From the NCBI RefSeq assembly GCF_014645655.1, contig NZ_BMMD01000004.1, positions 1 through 64,000 of the forward strand: 64,000 nucleotides of DNA, read 5' to 3'. Below, piece by piece: positions 12,351 through 19,888 of this stretch (position 1 is its first letter; the number at the start of each line of letters is the position of its first letter). Under the pieces are notes generated by a model that was not told where the DNA came from, made no database searches, and saw nothing but the letters and a program-made list of their open reading frames with translations. This DNA comes from Agromyces bauzanensis (lineage in GTDB: Bacteria > Actinomycetota > Actinomycetes > Actinomycetales > Microbacteriaceae). The position numbers were made by a program, and so were the translations under genes.

Positions 12351-14297
12351 ATGACCCTGCTCGAGACGATCTCAGGACCACGCGACCTCGACGCGCTGGA
12401 CCAGGAGCAGCTCGAGCAGCTGGCCCGTGAGGTGCGCGAGTACCTCGTCGCATCCGTCTCGAAGACCGGGGGCCACCTCGGCCCGAACCTCGGCGTCGTG
12501 GAGATGACGATCGCCATCCACCGCGTCTTCGACTCGCCGCGCGACGCCATCGTGTTCGACACCGGTCACCAGTCGTACGTGCACAAGCTGCTCACGGGCC
12601 GCAAGGACCTCTCGACGCTCCGTCAGACCGGCGGGCTCGCGGGCTACCCGCAGCGCTCCGAGTCCGAGCACGACATCGTCGAGAGCTCGCACGCCTCCAG
12701 CTCGCTGTCGTGGGCCGACGGCATCTCGAAGGCGTTCGAGATGACCGGCCAGTACGACCGGCACGTGGTCGCCGTCGTCGGCGACGGCGCACTGACGGGC
12801 GGCATGACGTGGGAGGCGCTCAACAACATCTCCGACGACAACACACGCCGGCTCGTCGTGGTCGTGAACGACAACGGCCGGTCGTACGCGCCCACCATCG
12901 GCGGCATGGCCAGGTTCCTGAACTCCGTGCGCACCAAGCAGACCTACCGCGCCCTGCACCTGTCGAGCCGCCGTGCGTTCGACCGGATGGGCGGGCCCGC
13001 GCGAGCGTTCTATCGCGGCGTCCGCGGCGGCCTGCACGGGTTCCTCAGCCGGTTCACCAACAACGAGGCGCTGTACTCCAACCTCGACATCAAGTACATC
13101 GGGCCGATCGACGGACACGACGAGCGCGCCATGGAGGAGGCGCTCCGACAGGCCAAGGACTACGGGGCGCCCGTCATCGTACACGCCATCACCGACAAGG
13201 GCCGCGGTTACGAGCCCGCACGCAACGACATCGCCGACCAGTTCCACGCGGTCGGCCAGATCGACCCCGAGACGGGGGAGTCGCTCGAATCCTCGTCGGC
13301 CCCGTCATGGACGAGCGTGTTCGCCGACGAGCTCGTGCGCCTCGCCGAGCACGACGAGCGCCTGGTCGGCATCACCGCGGCGATGCTCCGCCCGACGGGA
13401 CTGCACCGCATGGCCGAGCGGTTCCCGAGCCGAGTCTTCGACGTCGGCATCGCCGAGCAGCACGCCGCCACCTCTGCGGCCGGCCTCGCGTTCGGCGGCC
13501 TCCATCCCGTCGTCGCCGTCTACGCCACGTTCATCAACCGCGCCTTCGATCAGGTGCTCATGGATGTCGCGCTGCACAAGGCCGGCGTGACGTTCGTGCT
13601 CGACCGCGCCGGCGTCACGGGCCCCGACGGACCGAGTCACCACGGCGTCTGGGACCTCTCGATCCTGCAGGTCGTGCCCGGCATCCGCATCGCCGCGCCG
13701 CGCGACTCCGTGCGGCTCGCCGAGGAGCTGGCCGAGGCCGTGGCCGTCCAGGACGGCCCCACCGTGCTTCGGTTCCCGAAGGGCACGGTGGGCGTCGACT
13801 ACGACGCCGCGCGTCGCACGCACGACGGCGTCGACGTGCTCGCCGAGTCGGGTCGCAGGGACGTTCTGCTCGTCACGGTCGGCCCCATGGCGGGCATCGG
13901 CCTCGAGGTCGCCGAGCGCCTCGAAGCCCACGGCATCGGCGCCACCGTCGTGGATCCGCGCTGGGTCGTCCCGGTGCCGGCGAGCGTCGTCGACCTCGCC
14001 CGCGAGCACCGCATCGTCGTGAGCCTCGAGGACGGCATCCGGGTGGGAGGCATCGGCACGCGCATCCGGCAGGACCTCCGCGAAGCGGGTGTCGACACGG
14101 CGGTCACCGAGATCGGCCTGCCCGACGAGTTCCTCGAGCACGGCTCGCGCAGCGACATCCTCGAGCGCGTCGGCCTCACGCCGCAGCACATCGCGCGCGA
14201 CGTCACGGCCATGGTGCTCGGATCGAAGCTGCCGCATGCCCGTGCCGCGAGGCTCGAGCGCGTCTCGAGCGATACGCGACCGCAGCCCCGGGTCTGA
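12351..14297 (+). CDS. dxs: 1-deoxy-D-xylulose-5-phosphate synthase
   Basis: Thiamine-diphosphate enzyme that condenses pyruvate and glyceraldehyde 3-phosphate, the entry step of the MEP isoprenoid pathway. The 648-residue protein shows the transketolase order: FDTGHQSYVHKLLTGR near residues 66-81, the ThDP/Mg motif GDGALTGGMTWEALNN at about 143-158, the pyrimidine-binding domain (ERFPSRVFDVGIAEQHA, with the catalytic Glu) and a C-terminal domain. ATG with GGAGGC upstream. It stands alone between acnA and a convergent accessory operon. Confidence 0.97.
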   Translation: MTLLETISGPRDLDALDQEQLEQLAREVREYLVASVSKTGGHLGPNLGVVEMTIAIHRVFDSPRDAIVFDTGHQSYVHKLLTGRKDLSTLRQTGGLAGYPQRSESEHDIVESSHASSSLSWADGISKAFEMTGQYDRHVVAVVGDGALTGGMTWEALNNISDDNTRRLVVVVNDNGRSYAPTIGGMARFLNSVRTKQTYRALHLSSRRAFDRMGGPARAFYRGVRGGLHGFLSRFTNNEALYSNLDIKYIGPIDGHDERAMEEALRQAKDYGAPVIVHAITDKGRGYEPARNDIADQFHAVGQIDPETGESLESSSAPSWTSVFADELVRLAEHDERLVGITAAMLRPTGLHRMAERFPSRVFDVGIAEQHAATSAAGLAFGGLHPVVAVYATFINRAFDQVLMDVALHKAGVTFVLDRAGVTGPDGPSHHGVWDLSILQVVPGIRIAAPRDSVRLAEELAEAVAVQDGPTVLRFPKGTVGVDYDAARRTHDGVDVLAESGRRDVLLVTVGPMAGIGLEVAERLEAHGIGATVVDPRWVVPVPASVVDLAREHRIVVSLEDGIRVGGIGTRIRQDLREAGVDTAVTEIGLPDEFLEHGSRSDILERVGLTPQHIARDVTAMVLGSKLPHARAARLERVSSDTRPQPRV

Positions 14298-14309
14298 CGC
14301 GGGCGGTCG

Positions 14310-14984
14310 TCACGGCGTGAGCAGTTCGGCGTCGGGGAGCACGCGCAGCTCGAGCGTCAGGCTCGAAGGACGGTCGATGTCGATTCGGACGCCGCCGAAC
14401 GGACCGTCGGGCTCGGCGACGTGGCCGTCTTCGGTGCTGACGCTCGACAGGACGAGGTTCTCGAAGTCGGGGGCGGCGATATTCGGGCGCGCCCGATCGA
14501 ACGCCGAGGCGTCGAATCGGTAGGTTCCGCGCTGCACGCGCAGGGTGAGCTCGGGTGCGTCGAGTCCGCGGCGGAAGAAGAACGCGTCGACGGTGCCTGC
14601 GTCGCGTCGGCGCAGGAGCGGCTCGAACCGGTCCGGAACCCCGGAGAGGTGAAGTGGGTCGATCGTGATCGACATCTGCCGATGCGCGACGTCCGGTGCG
14701 ACGACGCTGCAGGAGAGGGACACGAGATCGTCGGAGCGGATCACGAGCGCGGTGTCGCGGCCATCCGGGCGCACCTGCGCGTGCACCACGGCGAGCACAT
14801 CGACGCTCACCCGGCCGACCGCCATCAGGGGACCCGATTGCCGGCCGACATCCACCTCGAACCGACCGTCGGTCGACGTGTCGGTGGCCCCGACCACCGG
14901 CGAACCCGTCTCCGGTACCACGAGGACGCGCTGTGCGGCGACGGGAACGTCGTCGAGCCGCAGCACACCCCGGACGCGCGTCAT
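14310..14984 (-). CDS. Uncharacterised beta-rich protein, partner of the annexin-repeat protein
   Basis: I do not recognise this 224-residue protein. Residues 1-60 (VRGVLRLDDVPVAAQRVLV, then DTSTDGRFEVDVG) resemble a carboxypeptidase-regulatory or transthyretin-like beta sandwich, in which such STDGRFEV strands are typical. The rest alternates short beta strands (ISIT/LTLRVQRGTYRF/LTLELRV) with no transmembrane segment and no signal peptide. Its ATG overlaps the upstream annexin-repeat gene's stop by 4 nt (ATGA), so the two are co-translated and probably work together. Base composition matches the neighbours. Confidence 0.7.
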   Translation of the reverse strand: MTRVRGVLRLDDVPVAAQRVLVVPETGSPVVGATDTSTDGRFEVDVGRQSGPLMAVGRVSVDVLAVVHAQVRPDGRDTALVIRSDDLVSLSCSVVAPDVAHRQMSITIDPLHLSGVPDRFEPLLRRRDAGTVDAFFFRRGLDAPELTLRVQRGTYRFDASAFDRARPNIAAPDFENLVLSSVSTEDGHVAEPDGPFGGVRIDIDRPSSLTLELRVLPDAELLTP

Positions 14985-16375
14985 TGTACGTACGCGAACT
15001 TCGGATAGAGGGAGATGAGCACGGACTTGAAGTGGGCGGGCATGCCCGACACCTTACCCGGACCGCCGCCCTTGGTCGTTCTCGTGCTCGAGGTCTTCGA
15101 CGTGTAGGCCCATTCGACGACGACCGTCGTGTGGTAGACCGTGTTGTAGTCCTGCACGAGGAACTGGTCGAAGTGGTCGCGTTCGACGACCTTCGTGGCA
15201 CCGCCGTCGAACTGCGCCGAGACGATGGAGCCGAACTCCGACGGACGGTCGTAGATCACCGTCGAGGTCGGCGTGCGGATGTCGACGCCCGCACTCTCGT
15301 AGAAGGGGTCGTCGGCGCTGGCCGAATCGATCGTGCGAATGGGGCTGGACGGATCGGTGGTGAGCGACATCGTGCCCTTCGTGGTCGGAATGCCGCCCTG
15401 GCTCACGAAGGCCGATGAGCCATCGGCCTGGGTCGCGACGACTTCCGACCAGAGGAACTGGATCCACCCCGTGTCCGGCGCGAGCGCGCCCTCGTATCCG
15501 ACGGTGAACCCTCCGGGGTACGCGGCGCCGCTCGGCAGCGTGAAATCGGCGCCGCTGCGCACCGAGACCTTTCCGCCCGGGATCGTGCCCGCGTGCTCTT
15601 CCGTGCCGGGTGAGCCCGGCACGACCTCCGCTGTCGGCGCCCGCGGTGCGGGTGCGTGGAGCAGGTACAAGGCGTATGCCGCCTCGTCCGAACTCATCTC
15701 GTCGGCGATGTCGGCCGCGAGTCCTCTGCCCGTGAGGCCGCCGCTGTACTCCGTGTCGTACGTGCTCGACAGCTTCGCGGTCCGCATCTGATCTCGTCCC
15801 ATGGGGATGAGCGCCGAATAGACCGCTTCCTCGTCGGTGCCGAGTCGATCCATCGCGCCGTGGAGCGTGCGCGCCGCGGCCTTGTAGTCGGCGTCCGAGG
15901 CCGGCGCCGCCTTCACTGCCGAGCCCGACACCCCCAGCAGTTCGAGCGCGAGCGCGAGCTCGGTGCCGCTCATCTCCGAGCGGATGGCCGACTCGAGGTC
16001 GGCGGCGTGGGCCGTACGGTAGGCGGCCTTGAGCTTGGCGATTGCGGCGGCGTCCTTGTCGAGTTCCTGCAGAGACACGAAGATCGCCTCTTCGTCGGTT
16101 CCCCAGCGATCCATCGCTCGATGCATACGTTCGGCGAGCGCAGAGATGTCGTCGCCGCTGAGCGCGACCCGCTGCACAGTGACGGGGGCCCGTTGCACGA
16201 GCGGTCCGAGGAAGTCGCCGGTCGCGAGCATCGACTCGGCGACGGCGACGTTGCCCGCGCGTCGCTGCATCGAAACGAACCGGTCGACGACGGTCGGCAC
16301 AGGTGCGCTGCGGTTCACCCCGCGTGTCGGCACCGACGGGTGACCACGGTCCGATCGCGCTCGCCCGTGCTCCAT
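14981..16375 (-). CDS. Annexin-repeat protein with an eCIS/DUF4157-cargo-like N-terminus
   Basis: A 464-residue protein. Near residues 30-65, SMQRRAGNVAVAESML followed by VQRAPVTVQRV matches the QR-AGN-AV...VQR leader of proteins that accompany DUF4157 and extracellular contractile injection systems. Two annexin-like repeats follow (about 75-145 and 160-235). Each has a loop of the GTDEEA type (RWGTDEEAIF; RLGTDEEAVY) and an exit like IRSEMSGTELALALELL. The C-terminal ~220 residues are beta-rich, Thr/Ser-rich and unlike anything I know. There is no signal peptide. A TAGGTT -10 lies 7 nt before the ATG (leaderless). A TTG three codons upstream is possible. Confidence 0.75.
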   Translation of the reverse strand: MEHGRARSDRGHPSVPTRGVNRSAPVPTVVDRFVSMQRRAGNVAVAESMLATGDFLGPLVQRAPVTVQRVALSGDDISALAERMHRAMDRWGTDEEAIFVSLQELDKDAAAIAKLKAAYRTAHAADLESAIRSEMSGTELALALELLGVSGSAVKAAPASDADYKAAARTLHGAMDRLGTDEEAVYSALIPMGRDQMRTAKLSSTYDTEYSGGLTGRGLAADIADEMSSDEAAYALYLLHAPAPRAPTAEVVPGSPGTEEHAGTIPGGKVSVRSGADFTLPSGAAYPGGFTVGYEGALAPDTGWIQFLWSEVVATQADGSSAFVSQGGIPTTKGTMSLTTDPSSPIRTIDSASADDPFYESAGVDIRTPTSTVIYDRPSEFGSIVSAQFDGGATKVVERDHFDQFLVQDYNTVYHTTVVVEWAYTSKTSSTRTTKGGGPGKVSGMPAHFKSVLISLYPKFAYVQ

Positions 16376-16382
16376 CGCGATC

Positions 16383-16388
16383 AACCTA
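16383..16388 (-). promoter_or_regulatory. -10 element for a leaderless transcript of the annexin-repeat operon
   Basis: On the minus strand TAGGTT ends 7 nt before the ATG at 16375, and there is no ribosome site between them. Confidence 0.45.
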
Positions 16389-16455
16389 CTCGCAGACCCC
16401 GAGGCGTCAAGGGCCCAACGGGTACCCGAAGGGGCAGGGCGGGGCTCGCTGATTC

Positions 16456-16487
16456 GGGGACCCCGGGGAACGGTTCCCGGGGTCCCC
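16456..16487. terminator. Strong GC hairpin downstream of the beta-oxidation operon
   Basis: A near-perfect palindrome of about 15 bp per arm (GGGGACCCCGGG... and complement, one bulged G) lies 43 bp beyond the stop of the fadB-like gene and before the annexin operon promoter, insulating the two. Confidence 0.65.
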
Positions 16488-16529
16488 GACGGGAACCGAC
16501 GGATGGGAGATTCGCGACGGCAGCTCGCG

Positions 16530-18668
16530 CTACGCGTCGACGCCCCGGATCGGCGGGTGGTGGAACGTGTCGCCGAAGACCTGCTCCGATGCGCCGACCC
16601 GGTCGAGGTACGGTGTCAGGCCGCCCATCTGGAACGGGAAGCCGGCGCCCAGGATCATGCACAGGTCGATGTCCTCCGCCGCGGCGACCACGCGGTCGTC
16701 GAGCATGAGCTTCGCCTCGCGTGCGAGACCGTCCTGCAGCCGGGCGAGGATCTCCTCGGGCGTCGAGGGGTTCTTCCCGCCGGAGACGATCTTGAGGGCG
16801 CCCTTGTCGAAGCCCGTGACCTTGCCCTTGTCGTCCTTCTCGAGCAGCTTGCCGTAGTCGGCGAGCCGGTGCAGGTTCTCGGACCGGTAGAAGCGGTCGG
16901 GAAACGCGGCGTGGTGCGTGTCGAGCACGTGCGCGCCGACCCTGAGCCCGACCAGGTCGAGCAGTTGCGACGGCGCCATCGGCAGGCCGAGGGGCGCCAT
17001 CCCCTCATCGACCGTGGCGAACGACGTGCCGTCGTCGACGGCGCGCATCGCCTCGCCGAGCAGCACCGCGAGCAGGCGGTTCACGACGAAGCCGGGGGTG
17101 TCGGCCGTGATCACCGCCGTCTTCTTGAGCTTCGCGGCGGTGACCATCGCGGTCGAGAGCGTCGCGTCGTCCGTCGCCGGGGTCTTCACGACCTCGATGA
17201 GCGGCATCACCGCGACGGGAGTGAAGAAGTGGAAGCCCACCACGCGCTCGGGGTGCGCCAGCTTCGCGCCGATCTGCTCGACCGAGAGCGACGACGTATT
17301 GGTGGCGAGCACGGCCTCGGGGGAGACGAACTGCTCCACCTCGGCGAAGACCTGCTGCTTGATCTCGAGTTCCTCGAAGACGGCCTCGATCACCCAGTCG
17401 CAGTCGGCGAAGTCGGCCTTGTCGGTGGTGCCGGTGACAAGCGCGTTCAGGCGGTTCGCCTCGTCGGGCGAGATGCGCCCCTTGTCGAGCAGCTTGTCGA
17501 CCTCGGCCGAGATGTAGCCCACGCCCTTGTCGACACGCTCCTGGTCGATGTCGGTGATGACGACGGGAACCTGCAGACGGCGCACGAACAGCAGTGCGAG
17601 CTGGCTCGCCATGTACCCGGCGCCGAGCACGCCGACCTTCGTCACGCGCTTCGCGACCGCCTTGTCGGGGGCGCCGGCGGGCCGCTTCGCGCGCTTCTGC
17701 ACCAGGTTGAAGGCGTACACGGATGCCTGGAGCTGATCGCCTGCGATGAGGTCGGCGAGCACCTCGTCCTCGCGCTCGAAGCCCTCGGCCCTCGTTCCGC
17801 TCTTCGCGGCCTTCAGGAGCTCGAGTGCGGCGTACGGGGACTTCGGCACGGTCCCGATGCGGCTCTTCAGCATCTTCGTGGCGATGCCGATGGCGGCATC
17901 CCACTTGACGAGTCGCTCGATCTTGCCCGGCTCATTCGGTCGCTTCACCTTCACGCGGCCCGAGACGACGTCGTCGGCCCACCTGATGGAGTCCTCGAGG
18001 AAGCTCACCGAGGGGAAGCGGACGTCGGCGATGCCGAGTTCGAGCACCTCGTCGGCCTTGAGCGTGCGGTTCTGCTTCAGCGGGTTCTCGATGACGACCT
18101 TGAGCGCGTTCTCGATGCCGATGAGATTCGGCAGGAGGTAGGCGCCGCCCCAGCCCGGGATGAGGCCGAGGAACACCTCGGGGAGCGCGACGGCCGGCAC
18201 CGAGGCATCCACCGTGCGGTAGTCGGCATTGAGCGCGATCTCGAGACCGCCGCCGAGCGCGAGGCCGTTGATGAACACGAACGACGGCACTCCGAGCTCC
18301 GATGCCTTGCCGAGCGCGTAGTGGCCGAGTTGGCCCATGCGCAGGGCGACCTCACGGCTCGGGATCTCGTCGACCTTGGTGAGGTCGGCGCCCGCGGCGA
18401 GGATGAAGGGCTTTCCCGTCACGGCGACGGCGTGGATCTCACCCGCGGCGGCACGATCCCGAAGCGCGTCGAGCGTCTTCGCGTACTCGAGCAGCGAGAC
18501 CGGGCCGAGCGTGTTCGGCCGGGTGTGGTCGCGACTGTTGTCGAGCGTCACGAGGGCGAGCGTCCTCCCGCCCGAGAGCGGGACGTCGCGCACGTACGAG
18601 TGCGTGACGACCTCGTCCTCTGAGAGCGCGGTGAGCGACCCGAAGTCGATCGTGGTGTAGTCGGTCAT
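16530..18668 (-). CDS. Fatty-acid oxidation multifunctional enzyme: enoyl-CoA hydratase / 3-hydroxyacyl-CoA dehydrogenase
   Basis: Catalyses hydration of enoyl-CoA and NAD-dependent oxidation of 3-hydroxyacyl-CoA. The ~712-residue protein has a crotonase domain (about 40-260) with oxyanion segments KPFILAAGADL and NGLALGGGLEIALN, and Glu in PEVFLGLIPGWGG. A Rossmann domain follows, with VGVLGAGYMASQ near 345, then C-terminal 3HCDH domains with HPERVVGFHFFTPV. MTDYTTIDFGSL is the family start. It lies 11 bp after the thiolase gene, forming the usual beta-oxidation pair. The symbol fadB or fadJ would fit, but I cannot choose between them. Confidence 0.94.
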   Translation of the reverse strand: MTDYTTIDFGSLTALSEDEVVTHSYVRDVPLSGGRTLALVTLDNSRDHTRPNTLGPVSLLEYAKTLDALRDRAAAGEIHAVAVTGKPFILAAGADLTKVDEIPSREVALRMGQLGHYALGKASELGVPSFVFINGLALGGGLEIALNADYRTVDASVPAVALPEVFLGLIPGWGGAYLLPNLIGIENALKVVIENPLKQNRTLKADEVLELGIADVRFPSVSFLEDSIRWADDVVSGRVKVKRPNEPGKIERLVKWDAAIGIATKMLKSRIGTVPKSPYAALELLKAAKSGTRAEGFEREDEVLADLIAGDQLQASVYAFNLVQKRAKRPAGAPDKAVAKRVTKVGVLGAGYMASQLALLFVRRLQVPVVITDIDQERVDKGVGYISAEVDKLLDKGRISPDEANRLNALVTGTTDKADFADCDWVIEAVFEELEIKQQVFAEVEQFVSPEAVLATNTSSLSVEQIGAKLAHPERVVGFHFFTPVAVMPLIEVVKTPATDDATLSTAMVTAAKLKKTAVITADTPGFVVNRLLAVLLGEAMRAVDDGTSFATVDEGMAPLGLPMAPSQLLDLVGLRVGAHVLDTHHAAFPDRFYRSENLHRLADYGKLLEKDDKGKVTGFDKGALKIVSGGKNPSTPEEILARLQDGLAREAKLMLDDRVVAAAEDIDLCMILGAGFPFQMGGLTPYLDRVGASEQVFGDTFHHPPIRGVDA

Positions 18669-18679
18669 CGTGGTCGTCC

Positions 18680-19888
18680 TCAGGCCTTCTTCGCTGCCCT
18701 GCGCGAGTAGTTCGGGTTCTCCCAGATCATCGTGCCGCCCTGTCCGAGGCCGACGCACATGGTCGTCATGCCGTAGCGCACGTCGGGGCGCTCTGCGAAC
18801 TGGCTCGCGAGCTGGTTCATGAGGCGGACACCCGAGGAGGCGAGCGGGTGGCCGACCGCGATGGCACCGCCCCACGGGTTGATGCGCGGGTCGTCGTCGG
18901 CGATGCCGTAGTGCTCGAGGAACGAGAGCACCTGCACGGCGAACGCCTCATTGATCTCGATGAGGTCGATGTCCTCGATCTTCAGGCCCGCCTTGCGGAG
19001 CGCCTTCTCGGTGGCGGGAATCGGCCCGATGCCCATGATCTCGGGGTCGACGCCCGCGAATGCGAAGCTCAGCAGCTTCATCTTGGGGGCGAGACCGAGC
19101 TCCTTGGCGACGGCGCCGGAGGCGAGCATCGCGGCGGTGGCTCCGTCGTTGAGACCCGACGCGTTGCCGGCGGTCACCCGTCCGTGGGGACGGAACGGCG
19201 TCTTCAGCCCGGCGAGTCCTTCGAGCGAGGTCTCGGGGCGCATGACCTCGTCGCGGGTCGCGAGACCCCAGCCCTCCTCGGTACGGATGGCGACGGGGAC
19301 GAGGTCCTGCTGGATCTTTCCGGCCTCGTAGGCCGCGGCGGTCTTCTGCTGGCTCGCAAGGGCGAACCGATCGCTGCGCTCCTTGGTGAGCTGCGGGAAC
19401 CGGTCGTGGATCCGCTCGGCGGTCGCGCCCATCACGAGCGCGTCTTCGCCGACGAGCTTCTCACTGACGAACCGCGGGTTGGGGTCGACGCCCGACCCGA
19501 TCGGGTGGTGGCCCATGTGCTCGACCCCACCGGCAATGGCGAGATCGTACATGCCGAACCCGATCGAGCTCGACATCATCGCCGCAGCCGTCATGGCGCC
19601 CGCGCACATGCGGTCGATGGCGAAGCCCGGAACGGACTTCGGGATGCCGGCGAGGATCGCCGCGGACCGGCCGATCGTGAGGCCCTGGTCGCCCGTCTGC
19701 GTCGTGGCGGCGATCGCGACGTCGTCGATGCGATCCTTCGGCACGCTGGGGTTGCGTTCCAGCAATCCGACGATCGCCTTCACCACGAGGTCATCTGCCC
19801 TCGTGTTCCAGTACATGCCCTTCTCGCCGGCTCGTCCGAACGGGGTGCGGACCCCGTCGACGAAGACGACTTCAGCTCGTTCAGCCAC
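18680..19888 (-). CDS. fadA: Thiolase (acetyl-CoA C-acyltransferase)
   Basis: Cleaves 3-ketoacyl-CoA with CoA to acetyl-CoA and a shortened acyl-CoA, the last step of beta-oxidation. The 402 residues include the acylated Cys95 (IDRMCAGAMT), the GHPLASSGVR histidine and the second cysteine in TTMCVGLGQGG. GTG start with GAGGGAG upstream. It is first in a two-gene operon with the multifunctional hydratase/dehydrogenase and has its own promoter-like TAGGAT. Confidence 0.94.
   Translation of the reverse strand: MAERAEVVFVDGVRTPFGRAGEKGMYWNTRADDLVVKAIVGLLERNPSVPKDRIDDVAIAATTQTGDQGLTIGRSAAILAGIPKSVPGFAIDRMCAGAMTAAAMMSSSIGFGMYDLAIAGGVEHMGHHPIGSGVDPNPRFVSEKLVGEDALVMGATAERIHDRFPQLTKERSDRFALASQQKTAAAYEAGKIQQDLVPVAIRTEEGWGLATRDEVMRPETSLEGLAGLKTPFRPHGRVTAGNASGLNDGATAAMLASGAVAKELGLAPKMKLLSFAFAGVDPEIMGIGPIPATEKALRKAGLKIEDIDLIEINEAFAVQVLSFLEHYGIADDDPRINPWGGAIAVGHPLASSGVRLMNQLASQFAERPDVRYGMTTMCVGLGQGGTMIWENPNYSRRAAKKA

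Follow-up and report, generated by a model that had tools for sequence, protein, structure and literature searches.

The two-gene locus between dxs and fadJ

Two open reading frames, here called P1 and P2, lie on the minus strand of the window, the 64,000-nucleotide stretch of Agromyces bauzanensis DNA that was analysed. The window is on contig C4 of a genome sequence of 3.72 Mb in 93 contigs that is 99.9% complete. The features of the locus are listed in Table 1. The original prediction had placed a two-gene arrangement here, with a co-translated partner for the first gene, and both ORFs and the ATGA overlap between them were found. It had also proposed a leaderless-type promoter, which stands in part: a TTGACG-16-TAGGTT site can be seen by eye close to the ATG of P1, but a consensus promoter scan of 14200-16600 listed none. 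The site is compatible with a leaderless transcript, which is unproven. An in-frame TTG is present at 16384, upstream of the ATG.

Table 1. Features of the P1-P2 locus and its flanking genes (positions in the window)
Feature	Positions	Strand	Description
dxs (1-deoxyxylulose-5-phosphate synthase)	12351-14297	+	Named by reading the sequence; one edge of the apparent insertion
P2	14310-14984	-	224 aa; ATGA overlap with P1
P1	14981-16375	-	464 aa ORF, ATG start; leader 1-70, annexin repeats ~72-242, CT ~255-464
CT	14984-15613	-	P1 residues 255-464; conserved, beta-rich, without Pfam name
P1 annexin part	15650-16162	-	Residues 72-242, two repeats
P1 leader	16166-16375	-	Residues 1-70; pLDDT about 35-70, predicted helix 29-51 over QRRAGNVAV
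Leader core QRRAGNVAV	16241-16267	-	Residues 37-45; hit of the degenerate DNA pattern
Promoter-like TTGACG-16-TAGGTT	16383-16410	-	3' end 7 bases before the P1 ATG; spotted by eye
fadJ-like 3-hydroxyacyl-CoA dehydrogenase	16530-18875	-	Named from sequence; may in fact start further in; second edge of the apparent insertion

The annexin assignment of P1 is better than chance at the level of sequence. The annexin profile PF00191 matches P1 with an E-value of 1.8e-10 and 41.2 bits (cut-off 25), and comparison with annexin XII by phmmer gave an E-value of 1.5e-12. This bears out the two annexin-type repeats with GTDEEA loops (residues 92-97 and 179-184) that had been predicted; the absence of any annexin-fold match in profile searches had been named beforehand as the result that would speak against them, and such a match was found. 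Eukaryotic annexins have four (or eight) repeats, whereas P1 has two. The annexin calcium loop is GxGT with an acidic cap residue. The loops of P1 are DRWGT and DRLGT, in which the second Gly and the Thr are kept and the first Gly is replaced by Arg in both repeats, and the acidic residue is retained (SEMSG and DEMSS). The consensus of alignment A1, made from 39 of 58 hits and the window's protein, has Gly at the first GxGT place in both repeats, unlike P1. Judged from these residues, the Arg could weaken calcium binding in P1.

The nearest named relatives of P1 and P2 are proteins of A. bauzanensis, at 88% and 83% identity, respectively. Neither protein has a match in NCBIfam or PADLOC, and a search of a viral structure library returned nothing at E <= 0.001. 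A foreign base composition was considered and rejected, the G+C content being 0.68 for P1, 0.70 for P2, and 0.70 for the window.

P1 is present in one of 60 genomes of the genus and in one of 299 genomes of the family, with up to 5 candidates scored per genome in the family search. In five genus genomes where dxs and fadJ were located, the two are direct neighbours in three, their aligned ends being about 90-130 bases apart, and have unrelated genes between them in two. One of these intervals (L067:3451-4685) holds a TetR-like regulator and a membrane-protein-like ORF and the other (L068:210-1301) a reductase-like and a lipoprotein-like ORF, all named from sequence. The unrelated ORFs indicate that the place between dxs and fadJ takes up different genes. 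From its position, the P1-P2 pair looks like an accessory insertion at this variable place.

The CT domain and its partner P2

The C-terminal part of the first protein, here called CT, had been said to match nothing known. This holds in so far as it has no Pfam name and no convincing relative in the PDB, but CT is a conserved domain, found in 61 of the proteins fetched, which are 60 relatives and the window's own (P0001-P0045 and P0062-P0077, P0001 being the window's own). The search for relatives scored the 7997 candidates sharing most words. A1 was the source of both the annexin and the CT profile, so that matches to most of those proteins follow from how the profiles were made; L006, L007, L011, and P0062-P0077 are outside A1. 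A further sequence, P0046, is partial with 26 bits and is not counted among the CT proteins. In all 61, one or more annexin repeats come directly before CT, and 12 further hits have annexin without CT. The occurrence of CT without annexin, as missing Pfam labels would have it, was rejected: in each of the 61 (at least 234 bits), CT is immediately preceded by a match to annexin that scores 39 bits or more. The conservation of this domain, always behind annexin repeats, is new. A DUF4157-type HExxH is found in cis in 34 of the 61.

The model of CT has pLDDT block means above 90 nearly throughout. Across the eight sequences of A3, the residues W54, Q56, F57, LTT88-90, D100, PFYE107-110, R117, and D126 (A3 numbering) are invariant. 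A known fold for CT was sought and none was accepted; the best match of the profile to PDB sequences has an E-value of 0.2, and the parts of the model that one fifth or more of the rows in the structure comparison span are 69-300, so that this comparison hardly bears on the CT fold. A search for CT in 396 genomes of the window's phylum and 386 of that of L006, with up to 7 candidates scored per genome, found only two genomes that were already known.

A restriction of P2 to Agromyces, suggested by a protein search with three hits including its own, was overturned by tblastn and profile searches of the loci. CT is encoded at three of the 25 annexin loci in genome_contigs, in an Acidobacteria MAG (L006), a Blastocatellia MAG (L007), and a Bacteroidia MAG (L011). 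At all three the next gene downstream of CT is a homologue of P2, with tblastn E-values of 1.5e-14 in L006 and 2e-15 in L007 and a profile E-value of 1.6e-22 in L011, which is outside that profile. The genes for CT and the P2 homologue overlap by four bases in L006. Counting the window, DNA is available for four CT loci, a small number, and the pair is present at all of them. Among the 5647 open frames of all loci the P2 profile has no other match at E <= 0.01, the best other being 0.06 at a leader locus, and no P2 homologue lies beside any of the 22 annexin loci without CT. The presence of P2 beside CT and its absence from these 22 loci suggest that P2 goes with CT and not with annexin generally. 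On these comparisons, P2 is a conserved partner of CT across phyla, and the pair seems to be new.

Compared with the window, identity is about 25% for P2 and 48-49% for CT in L006 and L007, and in L011 the two are alike at 22% and 25%. The description of P2 as beta-rich, made in the original prediction, rests on a poor model with a pLDDT of 59, and pilin and CnaB-type hits were not relied on as an indication of its fold. The only Pfam match of the window's P2 is DUF5801 (E 0.18), and the only one in PHROGs is phrog_29976, of unknown function (E 0.01). The N-termini of the L006 and L007 homologues have weak Ig-type matches, to carboxypeptidase-regulatory (E 1e-4) and bMG3 (E 0.003 and 0.007), that are below the cut-offs.

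Directly after the P2 homologue, L006 and L007 encode very long eCIS_core proteins (L006:11661-15989, 1442 aa; L007:2980-8439, 1819 aa). A match of the latter to the metallo-beta-lactamase superfamily narrowly exceeds the cut-off (24.9 versus 22.7 bits).

The injection system of the genome and the P1 leader

A phage sheath (PF04984) and an eCIS_core (PF13699) each have one match in the genome, both on contig C24. The statement that the window has no tail, sheath, or baseplate gene is correct for these two families. A search of the remaining genome for genes of an extracellular contractile injection system (eCIS), which had been recommended, found a system with its main parts on C24. The cluster encodes an AAA ATPase, sheath, gp19 tube, CIS_tube/LysM, spike hub, gp25, Baseplate_J, Tail_P2_I, a BTAD-type regulator, and eCIS_core. 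The eCIS_core protein is small (an ORF of 257 aa), and nothing else in Pfam matches it at E <= 0.001. Toxins associated with an eCIS often, though not always, have DUF4157 in the protein itself or in a neighbouring gene, and they are usually encoded in or beside the eCIS cluster. P1 has DUF4157 in neither place, the only match in the genome being that on C24, and its gene, on C4, is neither within nor next to the eCIS cluster.

Many relatives of P1 are either fusions with eCIS parts or have such parts encoded next to them, as became evident from the neighbourhood survey of homologues that had also been recommended. With the C24 proteins as tblastn queries (E <= 1e-4) against the 25 annexin loci, an eCIS gene was found nearby in 15, with the AAA ATPase in 13 of those. 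In 11 of these 13 the AAA ATPase gene is followed, on its own strand and at a distance of about 0.8-1.8 kb, by the annexin stretch. No eCIS gene was found at the other 10; some of these are short, but L019, L022, and L024 are about 20 kb each. In the L006 genome the contig that encodes CT also has sheath matches. The L007 and L011 genomes, both MAGs, have no sheath match, and L007 has three DUF4157 stretches. A search of genome_contigs with a single protein found no close relatives.

The predicted QRRAGNVAV...VQR leader is present before the repeats of P1, with VQR at residues 60-62 and 67-69; its helix is modelled with low confidence. The leader was sought in DNA with a degenerate pattern encoding Q-R-x-[AV]-G-N-x-A-V, with the reversed pattern as control. 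There are three matches in the window's own genome: P1, the small DUF4157 (eCIS_core) protein of C24, where the motif is also in the N-terminal part, and a protein at C4:134837. The reversed pattern has no match in this genome.

Strong eCIS_core matches are present in 5 of the 299 family genomes, and one more, G071, has a weak match (23 bits). The five have 11 matches to the leader pattern (3, 3, 2, 2, and 1) and the other 294, among which G071 is counted and has none, have seven; the reversed pattern has five over all 299. The 11 are five eCIS_core proteins and six others, all in frame, with the motif starting at residue 36-113 of mechanical ORFs. The open frames that hold the seven background matches are 70-130 residues long in five cases and longer in two. 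When the eCIS_core proteins are left out, the comparison is 4 of 5 genomes versus 7 of 294 (Fisher p 5e-6, uncorrected for relatedness). By these counts the leader pattern is concentrated in eCIS-bearing genomes. Five of the six other leader proteins are encoded far from the eCIS_core gene (on another contig or at least 0.7 Mb away) and one within 4 kb of it. In pairwise BLASTP (E <= 0.1) the six match each other over 21-68 residues, all around the leader, which suggests that the leader is their common part.

A looser pattern, applied to the protein sequences, finds the leader in the first 120 residues of 36 of the 61 CT proteins, compared with a shuffled rate of 0.0004. It is found in 20 of the 27 without the DUF4157-type HExxH and in 16 of the 34 with it, and the other 25 of the 61 have no match in their first 120 residues. 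The leader is common to P1 and eCIS proteins by a criterion that is this analysis's own and not a published one.

The second leader protein of the genome (L034:6592-8883, that is C4:134591-136882, plus strand) is 763 aa long and matches P1 only around the leader. It has a weak GmrSD_C match near its C-terminus (E 0.009, below the cut-off) and is a candidate for a second remote cargo. Leader proteins of other eCIS-bearing family genomes are encoded at L056:3677-5263 (minus), L057:5332-9519 (plus), L058:7781-10087 (minus), and L059:4956-7544 (plus), and their likeness is confined to the leader and its surroundings. Downstream of the gene for the L058 protein lies an overlapping ORF, and downstream of that for the L059 protein one at a short distance; neither ORF resembles P2 (best E 1.6).

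The P1-P2 pair as a putative cargo and its partner

P1 is probably a cargo protein, and a probable effector, of the eCIS encoded on C24, with P2 as its cognate partner; the probability of this reading is put at roughly 0.75. The original prediction had left the choice between an orphan cargo and a self-standing membrane-binding pair. The orphan cargo is favoured by the C24 eCIS, the occurrence of the leader in eCIS genomes, and the eCIS-linked relatives, and the self-standing pair has become the weaker of the two. Counting against a cargo are the location of P1 on a different contig from the eCIS, its lack of DUF4157, the 25 of 61 CT proteins with no leader match, the 10 of 25 loci with no eCIS gene, the L007 and L011 genomes with no sheath match, and the four other family genomes that have a strong eCIS_core without P1. 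As P1 is found in one family genome, its co-occurrence with an eCIS inside the family rests on that one genome. The Arg in both calcium loops, the low-confidence leader helix, and the poor model of P2 also count against this reading.

We infer that the QRxAGNxAV leader would direct P1 to the particle, either straight to the baseplate or tube or via the small DUF4157 protein as an adaptor in trans. In the available sections of a study of Streptomyces lividans, a small DUF4157 protein co-elutes both with a tube initiator and with the N-terminal part of a DUF4157-less cargo (PMC13277306), which makes the C24 DUF4157 protein a natural adaptor candidate for P1. Sle1/Sle2 of that species, as described there, resemble the present case in combining a DUF4157-less cargo with a small separate DUF4157 protein, one able to bind that cargo and a baseplate-related protein, whereas Sle1 is tape-measure-like and encoded in the cluster and P1 is an annexin-CT protein encoded elsewhere. 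Relatives with DUF4157 in cis would need no separate adaptor. Once delivered, P1 would be placed by its annexin repeats on an acidic phospholipid membrane, and CT may act at that membrane. P2, made by translational coupling, would be the cognate partner of CT, most likely as an immunity protein or as a dedicated chaperone keeping CT harmless until loading.

In the effector-immunity pairs of the T6SS, a cargo has an adjacent, translationally coupled small partner. The P1-P2 pair has this toxin-immunity-type trait, in that an adjacent coupled partner is kept with the CT domain, but the T6SS is a different machine, and toxicity of CT and neutralisation by P2 are putative. As regards the role of P2 only, there is almost an even chance that immunity is not involved and that P2 is a loading chaperone or a co-delivered second component, CT and P2 acting jointly and P2 either holding CT in a tube-compatible state or leaving with it. 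The highest Kyte-Doolittle 19-residue mean among P2 and its three homologues is 1.49, so that none of them has a strongly hydrophobic segment, and the retention of the pair over phylum distance at every CT locus with DNA would suit an obligate partner. In the available sections of Geller et al. (2021, PMC8213781), many tested eCIS toxins have no putative immunity gene; some toxin-immunity pairs do, however, adjoin eCIS operons. P2 also lacks the leader, and its faster divergence than CT in L006 and L007, if not in L011, would suit an immunity protein as well.

It is unlikely that P1 is a structural or anchoring factor of the eCIS, for example one tethering particles to the producer's membrane, and not an injected effector. 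Annexins are membrane-binding modules, which would fit such a role. A contractile injection system is also reported to require a membrane protein, CisA. However, the sporadic presence of P1 (1 of 60 genus genomes) and the variable interval in which it lies suit an accessory cargo better, and four other family genomes have a strong eCIS_core without P1. Less probable still is a self-standing membrane-binding pair that serves the producer, with a leader left over from some ancestral protein of an eCIS. Flanking genes of housekeeping appearance, the lack of DUF4157 in cis, and the pair's own promoter-like site would agree with it, but the leader is intact and matches in type that of the genome's eCIS_core protein, the genome has an eCIS with its main parts, and a second leader protein elsewhere is P1-like only around the leader.

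Annexin as an eCIS cargo is not new, since PF00191 is already listed as a putative anti-eukaryotic eCIS domain (Geller et al. 2021, PMC8213781, sections available). A 2014 survey of bacterial annexins describes, as in the P1 family, annexin repeats in bacteria and in some cases fusions to DUF4157, there read as a putative metalloprotease (PMC3894181). Neighbourhoods gave no general clue in the passages available from that survey, and the word 'injection' does not appear in its main text. In the available text of Danov et al. (2024, PMC11297309), no conserved signal sequence was detected in eCIS-associated toxins (EATs), and nearly all EAT genes lie no more than ten genes from the last core gene. 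EATs with DUF4157 (PMC8213781 and PMC11297309, as far as available) are like the P1 family in the leader region and in that relatives of P1 have DUF4157 in cis or lie behind an eCIS ATPase. P1 itself differs from the EATs of the 2024 excerpts in being without DUF4157 and outside the cluster, and in having the leader motif and a conserved partner gene.

Six literal leader strings retrieved no paper from the open-licence literature, in which other spellings are possible, and no paper there has both 'contractile injection' and 'Agromyces'. Judged within this literature, three things seem to be new: the enrichment of the leader in genomes with an eCIS, the set of remotely encoded cargo candidates, and the pairing of CT with P2.

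The cargo-type leader of P1 and its distant location suggest a readable address label for scattered cargo genes. A broader proposal, made tentatively and at somewhat less than even odds, is that QRxAGNxAV may be a conserved loading address of DUF4157-type eCIS, read by a docking surface for the small DUF4157 protein. Cargo genes could then be anywhere in the genome as swappable orphans with their own C-termini and sometimes a partner gene, and annexin-CT with P2 would be one travelling module in at least three phyla. If dispersed cargo can be recognised by a readable leader, effectors could be discovered by searching for a pattern, and the question of eCIS loading would become testable by deletion and proteomics. 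P1-P2 also offers a concrete two-protein system for the role of bacterial annexin repeats, which the 2014 survey left open in the text available (PMC3894181).

One annexin locus was also found on a viral contig (L063, IMG/VR); it has no CT or P2 match and carries three annexin-like open frames on one strand.
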